Below, one piece after another: positions 26,727-61,956 of a stretch of DNA of 64,000 nucleotides. This DNA comes from Loktanella sp. 5RATIMAR09 (GTDB lineage Bacteria > Pseudomonadota > Alphaproteobacteria > Rhodobacterales > Rhodobacteraceae), in NCBI RefSeq assembly GCF_001419985.1, contig NZ_LJAL01000002.1, positions 248,001 through 312,000 on the forward strand, read 5' to 3'. Positions within the stretch are counted from its first letter, which is position 1; every line of letters starts with the position of its first letter. The notes beneath the pieces were generated by a model. The model searched no databases. It was not told the DNA's origin and saw only the letters and a program-made list of their open reading frames with translations. A program made the position numbers and the translations under genes.

Positions 26727-28886
26727 TCAGGCGACCGCGTTTTCGAATGAGGTGCGGAAGATCTGGCTGAGCTCTGACAGGGGGGCGCTGTGGCTGCCAA
26801 AGGTGATCTGGTCGCCGCCCGCTTTTCCGACAGTCGCCAGCGGTACATGCGCTTGGCTGGCGGCGATCATCAGTGCTTCGGCTTGATCAAAGTTGCAGGC
26901 GATCAGATAACGGGCCTGATCCTCGCCAAACAGTGTTGGTGTATCTTCTGCGTCAAGTGTGATGCCCACGCCGGCGCTTTCGGCCAGCTCAAAGGCAGCC
27001 AGCGCAAGACCGCCGTCGCTCAGGTCTGTGCAGGCCTTGATATAGGCGTGGTTGGCGCGGATGAAATCACCATGTGCTTTCTCTGCGACAAGATCGACGG
27101 GGGGCGCATCGCCTTCGGCGCGACCATAGACCTCGGCAAGCAGTGCTGATTGTCCAAGGTGGCCAGTCGTTTCGCCCAGCAAGAGCAGCACATGGCCTTC
27201 GCGGATGTCGCCCGTGATCATATGATCGGGGTGGTGGATGATACCGACCGCACCGATGGTCGGTGTGGGCAGGATGCCTTTGCCGTCGGTTTCATTATAA
27301 AGTGATACGTTGCCCGATACAATCGGCATGTCGAGCGCTTTGACCGCCTCGCCGATGCCTTGGATGGCACCGACGAATTGTCCCATGATGCGCGGTTTCT
27401 CGGGGTTGCCGAAGTTCATATTGTCCGTCGTTGCCAATGGGACGGCACCTACGGATGTCAGGTTACGGTAGGCTTCTGCCACGGCCTGCTTGCCGCCCTC
27501 AACGGGGTTGGCCATGACGTAGCGCGGGGTCACGTCGCTGGTGAAAGCCAGCGATTTATCGGTGCCATGCACCCGCACGATGCCGGCGCCGGCGCCGGGT
27601 GTGCGTGCTGTATCGCCCATGACCTGTTGGTCGTATTGCTCATAAACCCATTGCTTGCCCGCGTAGTTGGGGCTGCTGATCAGTGCTTTCAATCCGTCGA
27701 TGGGGTGCACGCCTGCCATATCGCCCAGCGGGGCGGCGGGGGGGGTGGGTTCCCAAGGGCGGTCGTATTCGGGGGCCGAGCCGGAGAGGGTGGCAAGCGG
27801 CAGATCGGCCATGACCTTGCCGTTGTGTTCGATGATGAAACGGTCTTCGGCGATTGTTTCGCCAACGATCGCGAAATCGAGGTCCCATTTGACGAAGACA
27901 GCGCGGGCTTCCGCCTCAAGCTCGGGCTTGAGCACCATCAACATGCGCTCCTGGCTTTCGGACAGCATCATTTCGTAGGCCGTCATGTTCTCTTCGCGCT
28001 GTGGGACCGCGTTGAGGTTCAGTTTGACACCCAAGCCGCCTTTGTCGCCCATTTCCACCGCCGAACACGTCAGGCCAGCGGCCCCCATGTCCTGAATGGA
28101 AATCACGGCACCTGTGGCCATCAGTTCCAGTGTCGCTTCCATCAGGCGCTTTTCGGTGAACGGATCGCCCACTTGCACGGTGGGGCGCTTTTCTTCGATG
28201 GTGTCGTCAAATTCGGCTGATGCCATCGTGGCCCCGCCCACGCCGTCGCGGCCGGTTTTCGCGCCAAGGTAGACCACAGGCATACCGATGCCGGAGGCAG
28301 CGGAATAGAAAATCTTGTCGGCATCCGCGAGGCCCGCCGCAAAGGCGTTGACAAGGCAGTTGCCATTATAGGCGGGATCAAAGCGCACTTCGCCGCCCAC
28401 AGTCGGCACGCCAAAGCAGTTGCCGTAGCCGCCAACGCCCGCAACGACGCCATTGACCAATTGCCGTGTTTTCGGGTGAGAAGGTTCACCGAAAGACAGT
28501 GAGTTCATCGCGGCTATAGGGCGCGCGCCCATGGTAAAGACATCGCGCAGAATGCCGCCCACGCCGGTCGCTGCCCCCTGGTAGGGTTCGATATAGCTGG
28601 GGTGGTTGTGGCTTTCCATTTTGAAGACCACCGCCTGTCCATCACCGATATCGACAACGCCTGCGTTTTCGCCGGGGCCGCAGATCACTTGCGGGCCTTC
28701 CGTGGGCAGGGTGCGCAGCCATTTCTTGGAGGATTTGTAGGAACAATGCTCGTTCCACATCGCCGAAAAGATGCCCAATTCGGTGAAGGTTGGTTCGCGG
28801 TCGATGATCTCGAGGATCCGCTGGTATTCGTCAGGCGAAAGCCCGTGGGCTGCAATCAGGTCTTCGGTGATGGCTGGCTCTTGCAT
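26727..28886 (-). CDS. purL: Phosphoribosylformylglycinamidine synthase subunit PurL
   Basis: Fourth step of purine synthesis: converts FGAR to FGAM with ATP and ammonia from PurQ. The 719-residue protein is the small PurL that works with separate PurQ and PurS. Markers are [59 protein letters not shown] and [20 protein letters not shown], with [20 protein letters not shown] near the C-terminus. purQ and purS are not in the window. It is read away from the sRNA region, and one copy of the 3' element follows its stop. Confidence 0.97.
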
Positions 28887-29019
28887 CTTGGTCCCCCGCG
28901 CGTGAGTCGCGCGTGTTTTACGGGGTTGCGCGTAAGAGGGAAAGGGAGGTGTTGATTTGTCTGCTTTACAAAGCTGCTAATGCGGATCCGTGGGATGCAG
29001 CACAGGGCAGTGATGCGCC

Positions 29020-29047
29020 AAAAAAAATGCCGGGCACAAGGCCCGGC
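29020..29047 (-). terminator. Strong Rho-independent terminator ending the candidate sRNA
   Basis: Perfect seven-pair GC stem GCCGGGC / GCCCGGC with a five-base loop, then A and eight Ts on the minus strand. No protein gene on that strand ends within 200 bases upstream. Confidence 0.9.
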
Positions 29048-29141
29048 GAAGTCCAACAGGGAGGTGAGGTTGATGAGCGCTATCGCATCGTCAACCTCGA
29101 CTGATCAAATAGGGTGCGTTTTTTGACCAATCAAGAAAAAA
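29020..29141 (-). ncRNA. Candidate small regulatory RNA, about 120 nt
   Basis: The 373-base gap between purL and the LysR gene holds a complete minus-strand transcription unit. The promoter is TTGAAA (29176-29171), 17 bases, TAACAC (29153-29148). An internal hairpin has arms GAGGTTGA / TCAACCTC (29097-29065). An unpaired stretch contains CACCTCCCTG, complementary to Shine-Dalgarno sequences. The terminator has GCCGGGC / GCCCGGC arms and T8 (29047-29020). No reading frame of note lies in it. The layout resembles stress-induced sRNAs with C/U-rich anti-SD loops known in Rhodobacter, but sequence identity to any family was not tested. It could also be released from the LysR mRNA 3' end. Confidence 0.55.
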
Positions 29142-29259
29142 TCGGTTGTGTTATCGCAATGCCGCTATGCTTTCAATGCATAGCTAACGGGGCAAATCGC
29201 ATCAATCAACAGCTTTGGCCCTGTTTTCGAACGATAATTCTGCCTGTGGTTGCGTCGCG

Positions 29260-30165
29260 CTATATGTCTGTCGCTTCGCGCATTTTTCGCCGATGCGTGA
29301 AAATCTCGTCCTGTACAAAGTCGCGGAAGGCCGCGATGCGTTTGGATTGCCGCAATTCTTCGGGGTATGCGAGGAAAACGGGCACTTCCCCGCTTTCCAG
29401 ATCCGGCAGGACGCGCACAAGATCTGGAAAATCCTCAGTCAGGTAGTCAGGTAGAACGCCGATCCCGATATTATTGATAACGCCCTGTAGCACTCCAAAG
29501 TAGTTGTTTACGGTGAACGTGTTGGGAATGTCGTATGTCATCAGGTGTTGCAGCAGTGTTGCCCCCGCAGCGACCTGAATGGAATTGAGGCTTTGGCAGA
29601 TCAGTCTGTGGTCAGAGATATCCGACATCTCGACCGGCGCTTTGTTCGTTTCCAGATAGGTTTTTGACGCGTAAAGCCGCATCCGCACCGACATCAGCCG
29701 CTTGCGGATCAGGTCCGCCTGCGAGGGCTCTTTCATGCGGATCGCGACATCGGCCTCGCGCATGGGCAGATCGAGCACCCGTTCTTCCAGCATCAGGTCG
29801 ATTTTCAGATCGGGGTATAGCTCATAAAGCTTGGGCAGGCGCGGCGCGAGCCAGAGCGTGCCAAAGCCAGTGGTCGTGGTCACGCGCAATTCGCCAAACA
29901 CTTCCTCTTCGCTGTCACGGATGCGTGCTGACGCGGCCTCGAGCCGTTTGTTCATGCTTTTGGTAGCGTCAAACAACAGCTCGCCCTGTTCGGTCAGGAT
30001 CAGCCCGCGCGCATGGCGGTGAAACAGTGTCGTATTCAGCGATTCTTCAAGCGCACGAATCTGGCGGCTGACGGCCGATTGCGACAGGTGAAGCGTATCG
30101 CCCGCGTGCGTGAGCGAACCCGCGTCCGCAACGGCGTGAAAGATTCTTAGTTTATCCCAGTCCAT
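29260..30165 (-). CDS. LysR-family transcriptional regulator (divergent from indolepyruvate oxidoreductase)
   Basis: The 301-residue protein has the helix-turn-helix MDWDKLRIFHAVADAGSLTH ... LSQSAVSRQIRALEESLNTT and a normal effector domain (LRVTTTTGFGTLWLAPRLPK, LPMREADVAIRMKEPSQADL). I start at ATG 30165, preceded by AAGG. It is divergent from the indolepyruvate oxidoreductase gene, with two perfect palindromes between them, so local control is likely. The ligand is unknown. Confidence 0.9.
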   Translation of the reverse strand: MDWDKLRIFHAVADAGSLTHAGDTLHLSQSAVSRQIRALEESLNTTLFHRHARGLILTEQGELLFDATKSMNKRLEAASARIRDSEEEVFGELRVTTTTGFGTLWLAPRLPKLYELYPDLKIDLMLEERVLDLPMREADVAIRMKEPSQADLIRKRLMSVRMRLYASKTYLETNKAPVEMSDISDHRLICQSLNSIQVAAGATLLQHLMTYDIPNTFTVNNYFGVLQGVINNIGIGVLPDYLTEDFPDLVRVLPDLESGEVPVFLAYPEELRQSKRIAAFRDFVQDEIFTHRRKMREATDI

Positions 30166-30211
30166 AACGGCCTTTTTAAAAAAAATTTGTTGTATTTGAT
30201 TTGCAGACATT

Positions 30212-30285
30212 ACCCGAAACGGGTGTTTTGATGCAAACCACGATCTGATTTATTTTGTGCTTTGTAGGTCAGCAATTTTGACCTA
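30212..30285. promoter_or_regulatory. Two palindromes between the LysR gene and the oxidoreductase
   Basis: ACCCG-AAA-CGGGT (30212-30224) and TAGGTCA-GCAATTT-TGACCTA (30265-30285) are perfect inverted repeats in the divergent promoter. The second has the T-N11-A shape and spacing typical of LysR boxes, so it is the better candidate for the adjacent regulator. Confidence 0.55.
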
Positions 30286-30322
30286 TACTTTGATGTGTAA
30301 TCGACGTGCGGGGAGGTGCGGG

Positions 30323-33300
30323 ATGTCACATCAGAATGTGTCGCTCAATGATCGATATAATCTTAACAAACACCAGATTTTGCTGAACGGCACGCAGGCC
30401 TTGGTGCGCCTGATGCTGATGCAGCGCGCCCGGGATGAACAGGCGGGTTTGAACACCGCCGGATATGTTACCGGCTATCGCGGATCACCGCTTGGCGCCG
30501 TCGATATGCAGATGACCCGGGCGAAAAACGTGCTGGAGCCTGCACAGATCACCTTTCAGCCCGGATTGAACGAAGACCTTGCTGCAACCGCCCTTTGGGG
30601 CAGCCAGCAGGCGGAATTGCGCGGTGAGGGCAAATATGACGGCGTCTTTGGCCTGTGGTACGGCAAAGGCCCCGGTGTGGACCGTTCAGGCGATGTGATG
30701 CGCCACGCCAATATGGCGGGCACATCCCCCAATGGCGGGGTGATCATGGCAATGGGCGATGACCACACTGGCGAAAGCTCGACCACGTTGCACCAGTCCG
30801 ACTGGGCGATGATTGATGCCTATATGCCGATTGTGTCGCCTGCCGGTGTGCAGGAAATTCTCGACTACGGGTTATATGCGTGGGAATTGTCACGCTTTGC
30901 CGGTGTCTGGGTCGGTCTGAAGACCATGAAAGACACGATCGAGGTGACATCGGTGGTGGATGGCAATCCTGACCGCATGTCTTTTGTCCGCCCCGATTTC
31001 GACATGCCTGAGGGCGGTTTGAATATCCGTGTGGTCGACACCCCGCAGCTGCAAGAGGCGCGGATGATCGACTATAAACGCTTTGCCGCCGAGGCGTTTA
31101 GCCGTGCCAACAAGATGGACCAACGTAAATGGGGCAAGCCGGGAGCGAAAATCGGGTTCGTGGCAGCGGGCAAGAACTGGCTTGATTTGCAACATGCATT
31201 GGCGCTGCTGAATATTAATGAAGCAGAGGCCGAGGATTTGGGGATCACAACCTACAAGGTCGGACAGGTCTGGCCGCTGGATATGGCGTCGTTCCATGAA
31301 TGGGCCGAGGGCCTTGATCTGATTGTCGTGGTCGAAGAAAAGCGCAAGCTGATCGAGGTGCAGGTCAAAGAGGCGCTGTTTGATGACCGTGATGGACGCC
31401 GCGTTTATGGCTGGCATAAGGGCGATGAACACTCCGAAGGTCGCCGCGAAGAGGTGTTCCAGACCAAGGCGGATCTGAACCCAATTATGATCGCCGAAAA
31501 GCTGGGCGGTATTCTAGTGGAAGAGGGCTGTGGATCGGCAGGTGTTGAGGCAGGTCTTGTCCAGCTGGCCGAGGCGCGCCGTGCCGATAATGCACCCGAG
31601 ATCGCACAGCGTCTGCCCTATTTCTGTTCGGGTTGTCCGCATAACTCATCAACCAAAGTGCCTGAAGGATCACGCGCCTATGCGGGCATCGGCTGTCACT
31701 ACATGGTGCAGTGGATGGATCGTGATACGGTTGGTTTTACCCAAATGGGTGGTGAGGGCGCAAACTGGGTCGGCGAGGCCCCGTTCTCGACCCGCGACCA
31801 TGTGTTCCAGAACTTGGGCGACGGCACCTATAACCATTCGGGCGTGCAGGCCATTCGGTTTGCGCTGATGGCTGGCACCAATATCACCTATAAGATCCTC
31901 TATAACGACGCCGTCGCCATGACGGGTGGTCAGGGCAACGACGGCGGTTTGACTGCCGACCAGATCTGCCGCGAAATTCAGGCGATGGGCGTGCGCAACG
32001 TGGCGCTTGTCTACGATGACAAAGAAGACATCGACCTTGCGCTCTTTCCCAAGGGGCTGGATGTGCATGAGCGGGCAGAGATGCCGGCTGTGCAGGAGAA
32101 ATTTAGTAAATACAAAGGTGTGTCTGTCATAGTTTATGTCCAGACGTGCGCCGCAGAGAAGCGACGCCGCCGCAAGCGCGGCCAGTTCCCTGATCCCGAC
32201 AAGCGTGTCTTTATCAACACCGATATCTGCGAAGGCTGCGGCGATTGCGGGGTGCAATCGAACTGCGTCTCCATCGTGCCGGTTGAGACAGAACTGGGCC
32301 GTAAGCGCGCGATTGACCAGTCGTCGTGCAACAAGGATTTTTCCTGCGTCAAAGGGTTCTGCCCGTCTTTCGTGACGATTGAAGGCGCGAAAATCCGCAA
32401 AGAGGCGACAGCGGACGTTGATCTGCCCGAGATGCCCGCACCGGTGCTGCCTGCAATCACTGGAACGCATAACGTTGTGATTACCGGTGTTGGTGGCACT
32501 GGCGTTGTCACAATCGGTGCCGTGTTGGCCATGGCTGCGCACATCGACGGCAAAGGTGCGGGCATGATGGAAATGGCGGGGCTGGCCCAAAAGGGCGGCG
32601 CTGTGCACATCCATTGCCGGATTGGCGAAAAGCCCAGTGATATCAATGCAATTCGTGTCGCAACGGGTGAGTGTGATGCGCTGATCGGGGGTGATCTGGT
32701 CGTCTCGGCGGGTGCGAAAACGCTTGGCTTGATGAAAACCGGGCGCACCAAAGGCGTGGTAAACAGCCACGAGATTATCACCGGTGACTTTACCCGTGAC
32801 ACCGAATTTCGCCTGCCGAGTGACGAACTCAAAGTGTCACTTGCCGCGCGTTTGTCGGATGGATTGGCGATGTTTGACGCCTCTGATCTGGCCAAGGCGC
32901 TCTTGGGGGATAGCATCTATTCCAACATGATGATTTTTGGTGCTGCTTGGCAAATGGGCGCTATTCCAGTGGGTTATGACGCGATCTTGCAGGCAATCAA
33001 GCTGAATGGTGCCGCAGTAGAGCGCAATATCCGCGCGTTTGAATTGGGCCGTTGGGCATATCTGCATCCTGCCGATGCGCAGGCGCTTCTGACGCCAAAT
33101 GTTGTGGCCCTGCCAAAATCCACAGAGGAAAAGATCGCGTTCCGCGAGGCACATCTGGTGGCGTATCAAAGCAAGTGGCTCGCCAAACGCTATCGCAAAA
33201 TGGTCGCGCGTTTTATGGATGACGGGATGCGCGCTGCGGTGGCAACAGGCTATCACAAGCTATTGGCCTATAAGGATGAATACGAAGTAGCGCGTCTGCT

Positions 33301-33739
33301 GACCCAGACCGAAGAAAAGGCGAAAGCCGAGTTTGATGGGGATCTGAAGCTGACTTATCATCTGGCCCCGCCGATGCTGAGCAAGACCGGCCCTGACGGG
33401 CGGCCCGCCAAGAAGGAATTCGGCGCGCGCATGGCGTGGGCCTTTCCCAAGCTTGCCAAGCTGAAATTCCTGCGCGGCACGCCCTTTGACCCATTCGGGC
33501 GGACCGCCGAGCGGCGGATGGAGCGCGCACTGATTGCGGAATATGAAGCCGATATGGCCGAAGTGCTGCAAATCATGCGGCCTGATACGCGCGATGCGGC
33601 GATTGCGCTTGCGGAATTGCCCCGCGACATTCGTGGCTTCGGTCCGGTGAAAGAGGCGAATGCGCGCAAGACGGCAAAGCGCCGTGAAGAGCTTTTGGCG
33701 GTGTTGCGCGCGCGCCCGATGCAACAGGCGGCGGAATAG
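30323..33739 (+). CDS. Indolepyruvate ferredoxin oxidoreductase, fused alpha/beta type
   Basis: The 1138-residue enzyme decarboxylates aryl- or branched 2-oxoacids oxidatively to acyl-CoA, reducing ferredoxin. Order of parts: pyrimidine-binding domain (YVTGYRGSPLGAVDMQM), TPP domain (AGIGCHYMVQWMDRD, AMTGGQGNDGGLTADQI), a 4Fe-4S site (NTDICEGCGDCGVQSNCVSI), then the gamma-type domain (ITGVGGTGVVTIGAVLAMAA, MEMAGLAQKGGAVHIHCRIG). The fusion of IorA- and IorB-like parts is usual in this group. I chose ATG 30323 behind GGGAGGTG. The neighbouring LysR probably regulates it. Confidence 0.93.
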   Translation: MSHQNVSLNDRYNLNKHQILLNGTQALVRLMLMQRARDEQAGLNTAGYVTGYRGSPLGAVDMQMTRAKNVLEPAQITFQPGLNEDLAATALWGSQQAELRGEGKYDGVFGLWYGKGPGVDRSGDVMRHANMAGTSPNGGVIMAMGDDHTGESSTTLHQSDWAMIDAYMPIVSPAGVQEILDYGLYAWELSRFAGVWVGLKTMKDTIEVTSVVDGNPDRMSFVRPDFDMPEGGLNIRVVDTPQLQEARMIDYKRFAAEAFSRANKMDQRKWGKPGAKIGFVAAGKNWLDLQHALALLNINEAEAEDLGITTYKVGQVWPLDMASFHEWAEGLDLIVVVEEKRKLIEVQVKEALFDDRDGRRVYGWHKGDEHSEGRREEVFQTKADLNPIMIAEKLGGILVEEGCGSAGVEAGLVQLAEARRADNAPEIAQRLPYFCSGCPHNSSTKVPEGSRAYAGIGCHYMVQWMDRDTVGFTQMGGEGANWVGEAPFSTRDHVFQNLGDGTYNHSGVQAIRFALMAGTNITYKILYNDAVAMTGGQGNDGGLTADQICREIQAMGVRNVALVYDDKEDIDLALFPKGLDVHERAEMPAVQEKFSKYKGVSVIVYVQTCAAEKRRRRKRGQFPDPDKRVFINTDICEGCGDCGVQSNCVSIVPVETELGRKRAIDQSSCNKDFSCVKGFCPSFVTIEGAKIRKEATADVDLPEMPAPVLPAITGTHNVVITGVGGTGVVTIGAVLAMAAHIDGKGAGMMEMAGLAQKGGAVHIHCRIGEKPSDINAIRVATGECDALIGGDLVVSAGAKTLGLMKTGRTKGVVNSHEIITGDFTRDTEFRLPSDELKVSLAARLSDGLAMFDASDLAKALLGDSIYSNMMIFGAAWQMGAIPVGYDAILQAIKLNGAAVERNIRAFELGRWAYLHPADAQALLTPNVVALPKSTEEKIAFREAHLVAYQSKWLAKRYRKMVARFMDDGMRAAVATGYHKLLAYKDEYEVARLLTQTEEKAKAEFDGDLKLTYHLAPPMLSKTGPDGRPAKKEFGARMAWAFPKLAKLKFLRGTPFDPFGRTAERRMERALIAEYEADMAEVLQIMRPDTRDAAIALAELPRDIRGFGPVKEANARKTAKRREELLAVLRARPMQQAAE

Positions 33740-61879: not shown

Positions 61880-61956
61880 CGGGGCGTAGCGCAGCCTGGT
61901 AGCGCATCTGTTTTGGGAACAGAGGGTCGGGAGTTCGAATCTCTCCGCCCCGACCA
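61880..61956 (+). tRNA. tRNA-Pro (anticodon TGG)
   Basis: Full cloverleaf: acceptor CGGGGCG / CGCCCCG, D arm GCGC-AGCCTGGTA-GCGC, anticodon stem TCTGT / ACAGA with loop TTTGGGA (anticodon TGG), T arm GGGAG-TTCGAAT-CTCTC, and encoded 3' CCA. Confidence 0.97.

Follow-up and report, generated by a model that had tools for sequence, protein, structure and literature searches.

In the window, by which we mean the whole 64,000-nucleotide stretch of DNA analyzed here, the interval between a lysR gene and purL carries a compact minus-strand unit: a 25-bp operator-like site, a promoter, and a predicted ~81-nt RNA in which a mostly unpaired CCUCCCUGUUGGACUU lies between a 5′ hairpin and an intrinsic terminator. 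By gene order and sequence, this RNA is the positional ortholog of SorY, a known stress-response sRNA of Rhodobacter; the assignment is well supported and the RNA is not new. We consider it probable that this SorY counterpart, which has a predicted RpoH-type promoter, is activated by the LsrB/VtlR-type LysR encoded upstream, acting at a conserved palindrome. The gene order, the promoter, the near-invariant CCUCCCUGUUGGACU, the terminator, and a palindrome at a near-fixed distance from the promoter are seen in the sequence itself. In the proposed mechanism, the upstream-encoded LysR would bind the palindrome ahead of the SorY promoter and, together with RNA polymerase carrying an RpoH sigma factor, would switch the sRNA gene on under oxidative stress. 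The ~81-nt RNA, helped by Hfq, would then pair with the Shine-Dalgarno regions of transporter mRNAs and block them, an action modelled on the published SorY-takP case in R. sphaeroides.

SorY and CcsR1-4 are described as part of the singlet-oxygen response of R. sphaeroides, and their transcription is attributed to RpoHI and RpoHII; SorY, CcsR1, and SorX are reported to be RpoHI/RpoHII-dependent and bound by Hfq (PMC5036791). This attribution favors an alternative, namely that SorY answers to RpoHI/RpoHII alone, that the palindrome is bound by another protein, and that lysR is a neighbor by descent only. We regard this alternative as unlikely. A conserved operator with a candidate LysR would instead add a second, signal-specific input to SorY/CcsR1-4, and would join two literatures, that on VtlR/LsrB-AbcR in rhizobia and that on SorY/CcsR in Rhodobacter. 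The operator, the regulator assignment, and a joint regulon of SorY and ccaF1-CcsR were not found in the literature searched, to which the original SorY and SorX papers did not belong.

A SorY ortholog between lysR and purL

The unit is flanked by a lysR gene of the LsrB/VtlR type encoding the candidate activator (29260..30210, minus strand; Pfam HTH_1 and LysR_substrate) and by its downstream neighbor purL (26727..28886, minus strand; Pfam AIRS, AIRS_C, and FGAR-AT_linker), the location already given in the initial annotation. Divergent to lysR, the upstream neighbor 'kor' (30257..33739, plus strand) encodes POR and DUF6537 Pfam domains. The SorY-ortholog sRNA itself occupies 29020..29100 (minus strand), its start near 29100 and its length near 81 nt being obtained by aligning it with the start published for R. 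sphaeroides SorY. The predicted transcript begins with the 5′ hairpin (29066..29098, minus strand; –17.9 kcal/mol for the pre-core segment), continues with the anti-Shine-Dalgarno core CCTCCCTGTTGGACTT (29049..29064, minus strand), whose first 15 bases are exact in 122 of 131 lysR-purL loci, and ends in the terminator (29020..29047, minus strand), which has a 7-bp all-GC stem (29047-29029) and T8 (29027-29020) and reads GCCGGGC-CTTGT-GCCCGGC, then A and T8.

The initial annotation had described a ~120-nt anti-Shine-Dalgarno sRNA in this interval, with a hairpin, an unpaired segment, and a GC terminator with T8. An sRNA with these parts is supported: the terminator lies at 29047-29020, and a predicted 121-nt fold has a 5′ hairpin and leaves CACCTCCCTG mostly unpaired (–45.7 kcal/mol, z –5.8; none of 200 shuffles reached so low an energy). 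A length of ~120 nt is not supported, as the aligned start near 29100 gives ~81 nt; with this start, of the two 5′ hairpins that the 121-nt fold contains, the first would be promoter DNA, not RNA. We noted a second CACCTCCC stretch (AACACCTCCCTTTCC) past the terminator at 28937-28953 (minus strand), ~55-65 nt upstream of where purL begins; it may belong to a purL leader or be a run of pyrimidines arising by chance.

The reference locus comes from genome G051, which we take to be R. sphaeroides 2.4.1, a member of the same family as the window genome. Its SorX match starts at 2,598,225, compared with a published R. sphaeroides RNase E site at 2,598,224, and its SorY match (115 bits) starts at 1,632,645, compared with the published SorY start at 1,632,642. 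The SorY locus of G051 has the same order as the window, its lysR, purL, and divergent kor being 79%, 79%, and 72% identical to the window genes; this lysR is at C4:1631580-1632464. It is from this common order, kor-lysR-SorY-purL, that the window element is identified as a SorY ortholog. The likeness to R. sphaeroides SorY (formerly RSs1543; RF02651) extends to the promoter, the start, the core, the 5′ hairpin, and the terminator, whereas the stem sequences differ; because of these stems, the Rfam SorY model gives just 44.2 bits where 111 are required, and the window RNA is not filed under the SorY entry as curated. A covariance model of 27 orthologs, the window sequence included, matches 29020-29100.

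To examine conservation, which the initial annotation had put forward as a check, 149 genomes of the family were searched; 144 had a strong LysR match and 131 loci were read, the 13 others being left out for lower identity or a gene at a contig edge. CCTCCCTGTTGGACT is exact in 122/131 orthologous lysR-purL loci, and CCTCCCT occurs within 300 nt of the lysR stop in 124/131. Seven loci are without CCTCCCT in this range; in one of them, from genome G105, it is displaced ~1.3 kb further (L252). We found kor divergent to lysR in 104/131 loci and purL behind the sRNA in 59/131, many stretches ending too early to tell. Upstream of the core, sequence identity between species is ~34% (ungapped, left-justified). 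Despite this divergence, a 5′ hairpin was predicted in all 113 orthologs folded, with a mean z of –3.8 against dinucleotide shuffles and values below –2 in 109/113. With the exact core and this hairpin, the proposed conservation check is borne out. For the most part, the CCUCCC bases stay single-stranded, with a mean unpaired probability of 0.64 and more than 0.6 in 105/113. When RNAalifold was applied to a MAFFT alignment, the 5′ hairpin went undetected, since sequence similarity does not bring the stems into register; support for the hairpin therefore comes from per-sequence folding against shuffles, not from a covariation count.

The sRNA follows lysR on the same strand, 160 nt past its stop, a position that would also suit a 3′ UTR fragment cut from the lysR mRNA, as SorX is from ompR-1. 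Such an origin is very improbable, as the conserved promoter described below stands between lysR and the sRNA and SorY of R. sphaeroides is reported to have its own start (PMC6238624).

An Rfam search, also proposed in the initial annotation, did return an sRNA family, namely SorX (RF02784), for which the window scores 58.8 bits against a cut-off of 46.6; the sRNA is not an unknown one, gene order making it a SorY ortholog. SorX (formerly RSs2461) shares the core and the terminator layout with the window RNA, and the score is above threshold, so taken at face value the Rfam label would make the window RNA SorX. We give this slightly less weight still: among the three SorX-model matches in this genome, the best (75.1 bits; G000:C5:112737-112808) lies elsewhere, behind an OmpR-type gene, as SorX does in R. 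sphaeroides, and the window locus is syntenic with SorY. Moreover, SorX is derived from the 3′ UTR of ompR-1 (PMC6238624), whereas the window RNA has its own conserved promoter at another locus. SorY orthologs can thus be missed or labelled SorX, as the Rfam SorY cut-off excludes the window's own ortholog. The last of the three SorX-like RNAs scores lower (32.1 bits; L005 5142-5215, plus strand, equal to G000:C3:171141-171214); it has CCTCCCTGTTTGACT and a terminator, and is by position neither SorX nor SorY. Near the SorX ortholog of this genome, Rfam also reports a serC leader (68.9 bits; L004 1671-1722, minus strand). In the window, the sole other Rfam match at gathering threshold is a tRNA gene at 61880-61953 (plus strand).

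Hfq binding, another check put forward in the initial annotation, is published for SorY of R. sphaeroides (PMC5036791). The published SorY target in R. sphaeroides is takP (cited in PMC6238624), and one G051 protein matches the solved TakP chain 2hzk across the whole query, a further point for taking G051 to be R. sphaeroides. The core pairs with the R. sphaeroides takP ribosome-binding site (GUCCACAAGGGAGGA) at –22.8 kcal/mol, with 0 of 200 shuffles as low; this is the lowest value among 18 TRAP receptor genes in two genomes. For the nearest takP homolog in the window genome (37.5% identical), pairing reaches –17.7 kcal/mol, with 8 of 200 shuffles as low, and the takP link in this genome is weak.

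Predicted promoter and LysR-type operator

An RpoH-like promoter lies at 29107..29135 (minus strand), with CTTGAT at 29135-29130 and CCTATTT at 29113-29107. Among 123 orthologs examined, one gave no candidate and nine low-scoring ones were left out; the conserved form CTTGA...CCTAWWT, with 22 nt between element starts, is present in 98 of the remaining 113. The R. sphaeroides promoter has its end 6 nt ahead of the published SorY start, and the apparent RpoH-type sequence stands at the same place in R. sphaeroides and in the window. For promoters of RpoHI and RpoHII, TTG is described as what is conserved in the –35 element, at –36 to –34 (PMC3441632); in the window promoter it is at –34 to –32 relative to the aligned start.

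The initial annotation had instead placed a TTGAAA-17-TAACAC promoter further upstream. Both hexamers (29176-29171 and 29153-29148) and the 17-nt spacer are indeed present, but a promoter role for them, with a ~120-nt sRNA as product, is the least credible of the alternatives considered here: TTG occurs at that place in 1 of 85 strict-palindrome orthologs, namely the window itself, a different promoter is conserved, and a sigma-70 scan of 28500-30400 yielded no site. Comparison with the orthologs shows a conserved palindrome with a variable spacer, and TTGAAA is this spacer; it so lies inside a LysR-type operator, which the initial annotation had not recognized.

This operator, ATGCATTGAAAGCATAGCGGCATTG, spans 29157..29181 (minus strand), and its last 15 bases (29171-29157) form a part resembling the VtlR motif. 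Its palindrome, ATGC-N7-GCAT, is a T-N11-A form of LysR sites. The palindrome stands ahead of the promoter in 85/123 orthologs, as compared to 0.3 in mononucleotide shuffles and 1/123 in a downstream control; it is missing in its strict form in 38/123. A looser ATG-N9-CAT is found in 104/123, versus 4.7 in shuffles and 5/123 in the downstream control. One locus whose lysR frame runs on (L144) was excluded from these counts. The operator center is 38.5-39.5 nt ahead of the –35 element in 75/83, and in the window it is ~74 nt ahead of the predicted start. A wider pattern, ATGC-N7-GCAT-RNCNGNNWTG, which was built from the SorY-ortholog upstream regions themselves, has two sites in the whole genome and is present in 132/149 family genomes, as against none for the reversed pattern. 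Ahead of lysR itself, the strict palindrome occurs in 1/131 loci. Self-regulation of lysR is therefore not indicated, and this count also speaks for control of SorY by RpoHI/RpoHII alone; A. tumefaciens LsrB is reported to regulate itself (PMC11975290).

For Brucella, the VtlR-binding motif is quoted as CAATGCAGCCATGCA (PMC12595884). The window operator agrees with it at 12/15 bases, GG replacing TG of the box GCAT-N3-TG-N3-T; for the DUF1127 sites, both here and in R. sphaeroides, agreement is 13/15. With up to four mismatches, the motif is found in 52/123 SorY upstream regions, compared with one in the downstream control and two in the lysR-upstream control; 200 scrambled motifs gave 0.85 of 123 on average and 19 at most. 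By itself, the published 15-mer is unspecific genome-wide (190 sites at up to three mismatches vs 30 for the reversed pattern), a second point in favor of RpoHI/RpoHII acting alone.

The LsrB/VtlR-type regulator and candidate DUF1127 targets

The solved chain nearest to the window LysR is 9hh1 (237 bits; the next scores 102), which is LsrB of A. tumefaciens (PMC11975290). In the reverse comparison, the LysR neighboring SorY was the best of eight R. sphaeroides LysR loci for LsrB (246 vs 134 bits). A tree of 60 proteins places the family LysR, 27 relatives from the class, and 12 LsrB proteins in one group of 53 (support 92/97), apart from seven other R. sphaeroides LysR proteins, the outgroup branches being long and flagged by the tool. 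From these comparisons, the adjacent LysR appears to belong to the LsrB/VtlR lineage. LsrB has been stated to be unique to Rhizobiales (PMC11975290), and our comparisons speak against that. The partner of lsrB in Rhizobiales, trxB (PMC11975290), is absent beside the window lysR, whose neighbors are kor and purL; it adjoins lysR in four class loci scanned, which were picked because their neighbors looked like TrxB.

The helix-turn-helix domain of the window LysR is 75.5% identical to that of LsrB and 41% to those of other LysR proteins, which argues against the view that lysR is a bystander of an RpoH-driven gene. Its effector domain is 34% identical to LsrB and 26% to other LysR. DNA recognition thus looks kept and signal recognition changed. 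With regard to redox-sensing cysteines, the single cysteine of the window LysR (205) is found in 102/130 family relatives, whereas the position is T or S in all six LsrB proteins compared.

Besides the window site, this genome has a single full-operator site, which stands ahead of a DUF1127 gene with CcsR-like repeats. At this locus (L182 1501-2140, G000:C12), the operator is accompanied by a DUF1127 gene of 75 aa and by six or more CCTCCTCCC repeats with a terminator, a CcsR-like (CIN1) array in the window's genome. As the same operator stands ahead of SorY and of this locus, their two sets of anti-Shine-Dalgarno RNAs are probably driven by a single regulator. Among the matches listed, there are 60 further operator sites, one of which (L252) is the displaced SorY of G105. 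By the pattern used, a DUF1127-like gene follows 26 of these 60 and is lacking at 34. In the GCATRGCRG subclass, which was defined after seeing the sites, 24 of the 36 sites listed have such a gene. Eleven of the 26 DUF1127-like proteins were scanned and all are PF06568, and CCTCCTCCC repeats follow 13/13 DUF1127 operator loci examined. At four loci (L184, L185, L220, and L231), CCTCCTCCC repeats come after the operator, and the pattern used detected no DUF1127-like frame between them.

Behind the R. sphaeroides site at C4:692789-692813 come a DUF1127 gene of 71 aa and CCTCCTCCC repeats. The site lies ~2 kb from the published UpsM cleavage site at 694,720; we infer that this locus is ccaF1-CcsR1-4 (PMC10253847). 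The ccaF1-CcsR1-4 system (CIN1) of R. sphaeroides resembles the window unit in its reported RpoHI/RpoHII promoter and anti-Shine-Dalgarno RNAs (PMC10253847), as well as in the operator found here; it differs in that its RNA array is processed from a protein-gene transcript.

Similar target sets are reported for VtlR. In Brucella, VtlR drives a neighboring sRNA plus DUF1127 genes, and in B. melitensis it up-regulates AbcR2 and three DUF1127 genes (PMC12595884); A. tumefaciens VtlR activates abcR1, vrsA, and atu1667 (PMC7486931). Taken together with the operator sites found here, the two orders thus show one pattern, a sibling sRNA accompanied by DUF1127 genes. That both the motif and the kinds of target match the VtlR regulon weighs further against RpoHI/RpoHII acting alone and in favor of the LysR as activator.

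Related loci across the alphaproteobacteria

With less assurance than for the window unit itself, though on balance in its favor, we propose a wider reading: LsrB/VtlR would head an ancient alphaproteobacterial module, in which the LysR drives a neighboring anti-Shine-Dalgarno sRNA together with a DUF1127 gene carrying a CcsR-like array. The sRNAs of this module would be SorY in Rhodobacterales, AbcR in Rhizobiales, and unnamed RNAs elsewhere, and SorY and CcsR1-4 of R. sphaeroides would make up one regulon under one unrecognized switch.

Among 190 genomes of the class, 106 have a LysR match at E up to 1e-50. The 27 class loci studied are the best-scoring ones from other families, and therefore lean towards similar proteins. 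In 19 of these 27, the box (16 strict) is followed within 60-330 nt by CCTCCCTGT, compared with none of seven loci around other LysR genes and a mean of 0.04 in shuffles; this association of box and core with one LysR lineage again counts against a LysR that is a neighbor by descent only. Box and core are absent in eight of the 27. The covariance model of 27 SorY orthologs detected an RNA in 18/27 class loci at E up to 0.1 (16 at 0.01), and none in the seven control loci or in four rhizobial AbcR loci. Rfam at gathering threshold gave no match on 20 class loci. One class relative has three tandem SorY-model matches behind an LsrB-type lysR (L256 2591-3196, plus strand). The SorY counterpart and the conserved LysR-type site beside it suggest that a protein-to-sRNA switch known from rhizobia is shared across the alphaproteobacteria.

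In rhizobia, ar15 (AbcR, RF02345) was found behind lsrB in 4/4 Rhizobiaceae-type genomes scanned. The box GCAT-N3-TG-N3-T lies within 1.5 kb behind lsrB in 58/80 rhizobial loci, and forms the right half of ATG-N8-GCAT in 21 of the 80, both being counts without a control. Reports on the link between LsrB and AbcR disagree: LsrB is said not to be involved in AbcR expression in S. meliloti (PMC7486931) and, to the contrary, to be indispensable for AbcR1 (PMC8844928). The VtlR/LsrB-AbcR system shares with the window a LysR gene of the same lineage with an sRNA behind it, a similar operator, and DUF1127 targets, and AbcR is likewise described as an anti-Shine-Dalgarno CCUCCC sRNA acting on transporter mRNAs. 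However, both Rfam and the SorY model set AbcR apart as a different RNA family, trxB does not adjoin lysR in the window, and the LysR effector domain differs. The ar15 model had no window match at gathering threshold, nor up to E = 1 in 28800-29400.

A conserved 10-mer with an anti-Shine-Dalgarno signature is also described for the alpha-R8 sRNAs, MmgR of S. meliloti and SisA-D of Caulobacter (PMC12559287). The window matches the corresponding Rfam model (suhB, RF00519) weakly, at 22.5 of the 41 bits required, and membership in alpha-R8, like that in ar15, was set aside. Lastly, two records titled Arenimonas (L317) and Bacillus subtilis (L361) contain rhizobial lsrB loci, 93% and 70% identical to LsrB, and probably come from mislabelled or contaminated assemblies.
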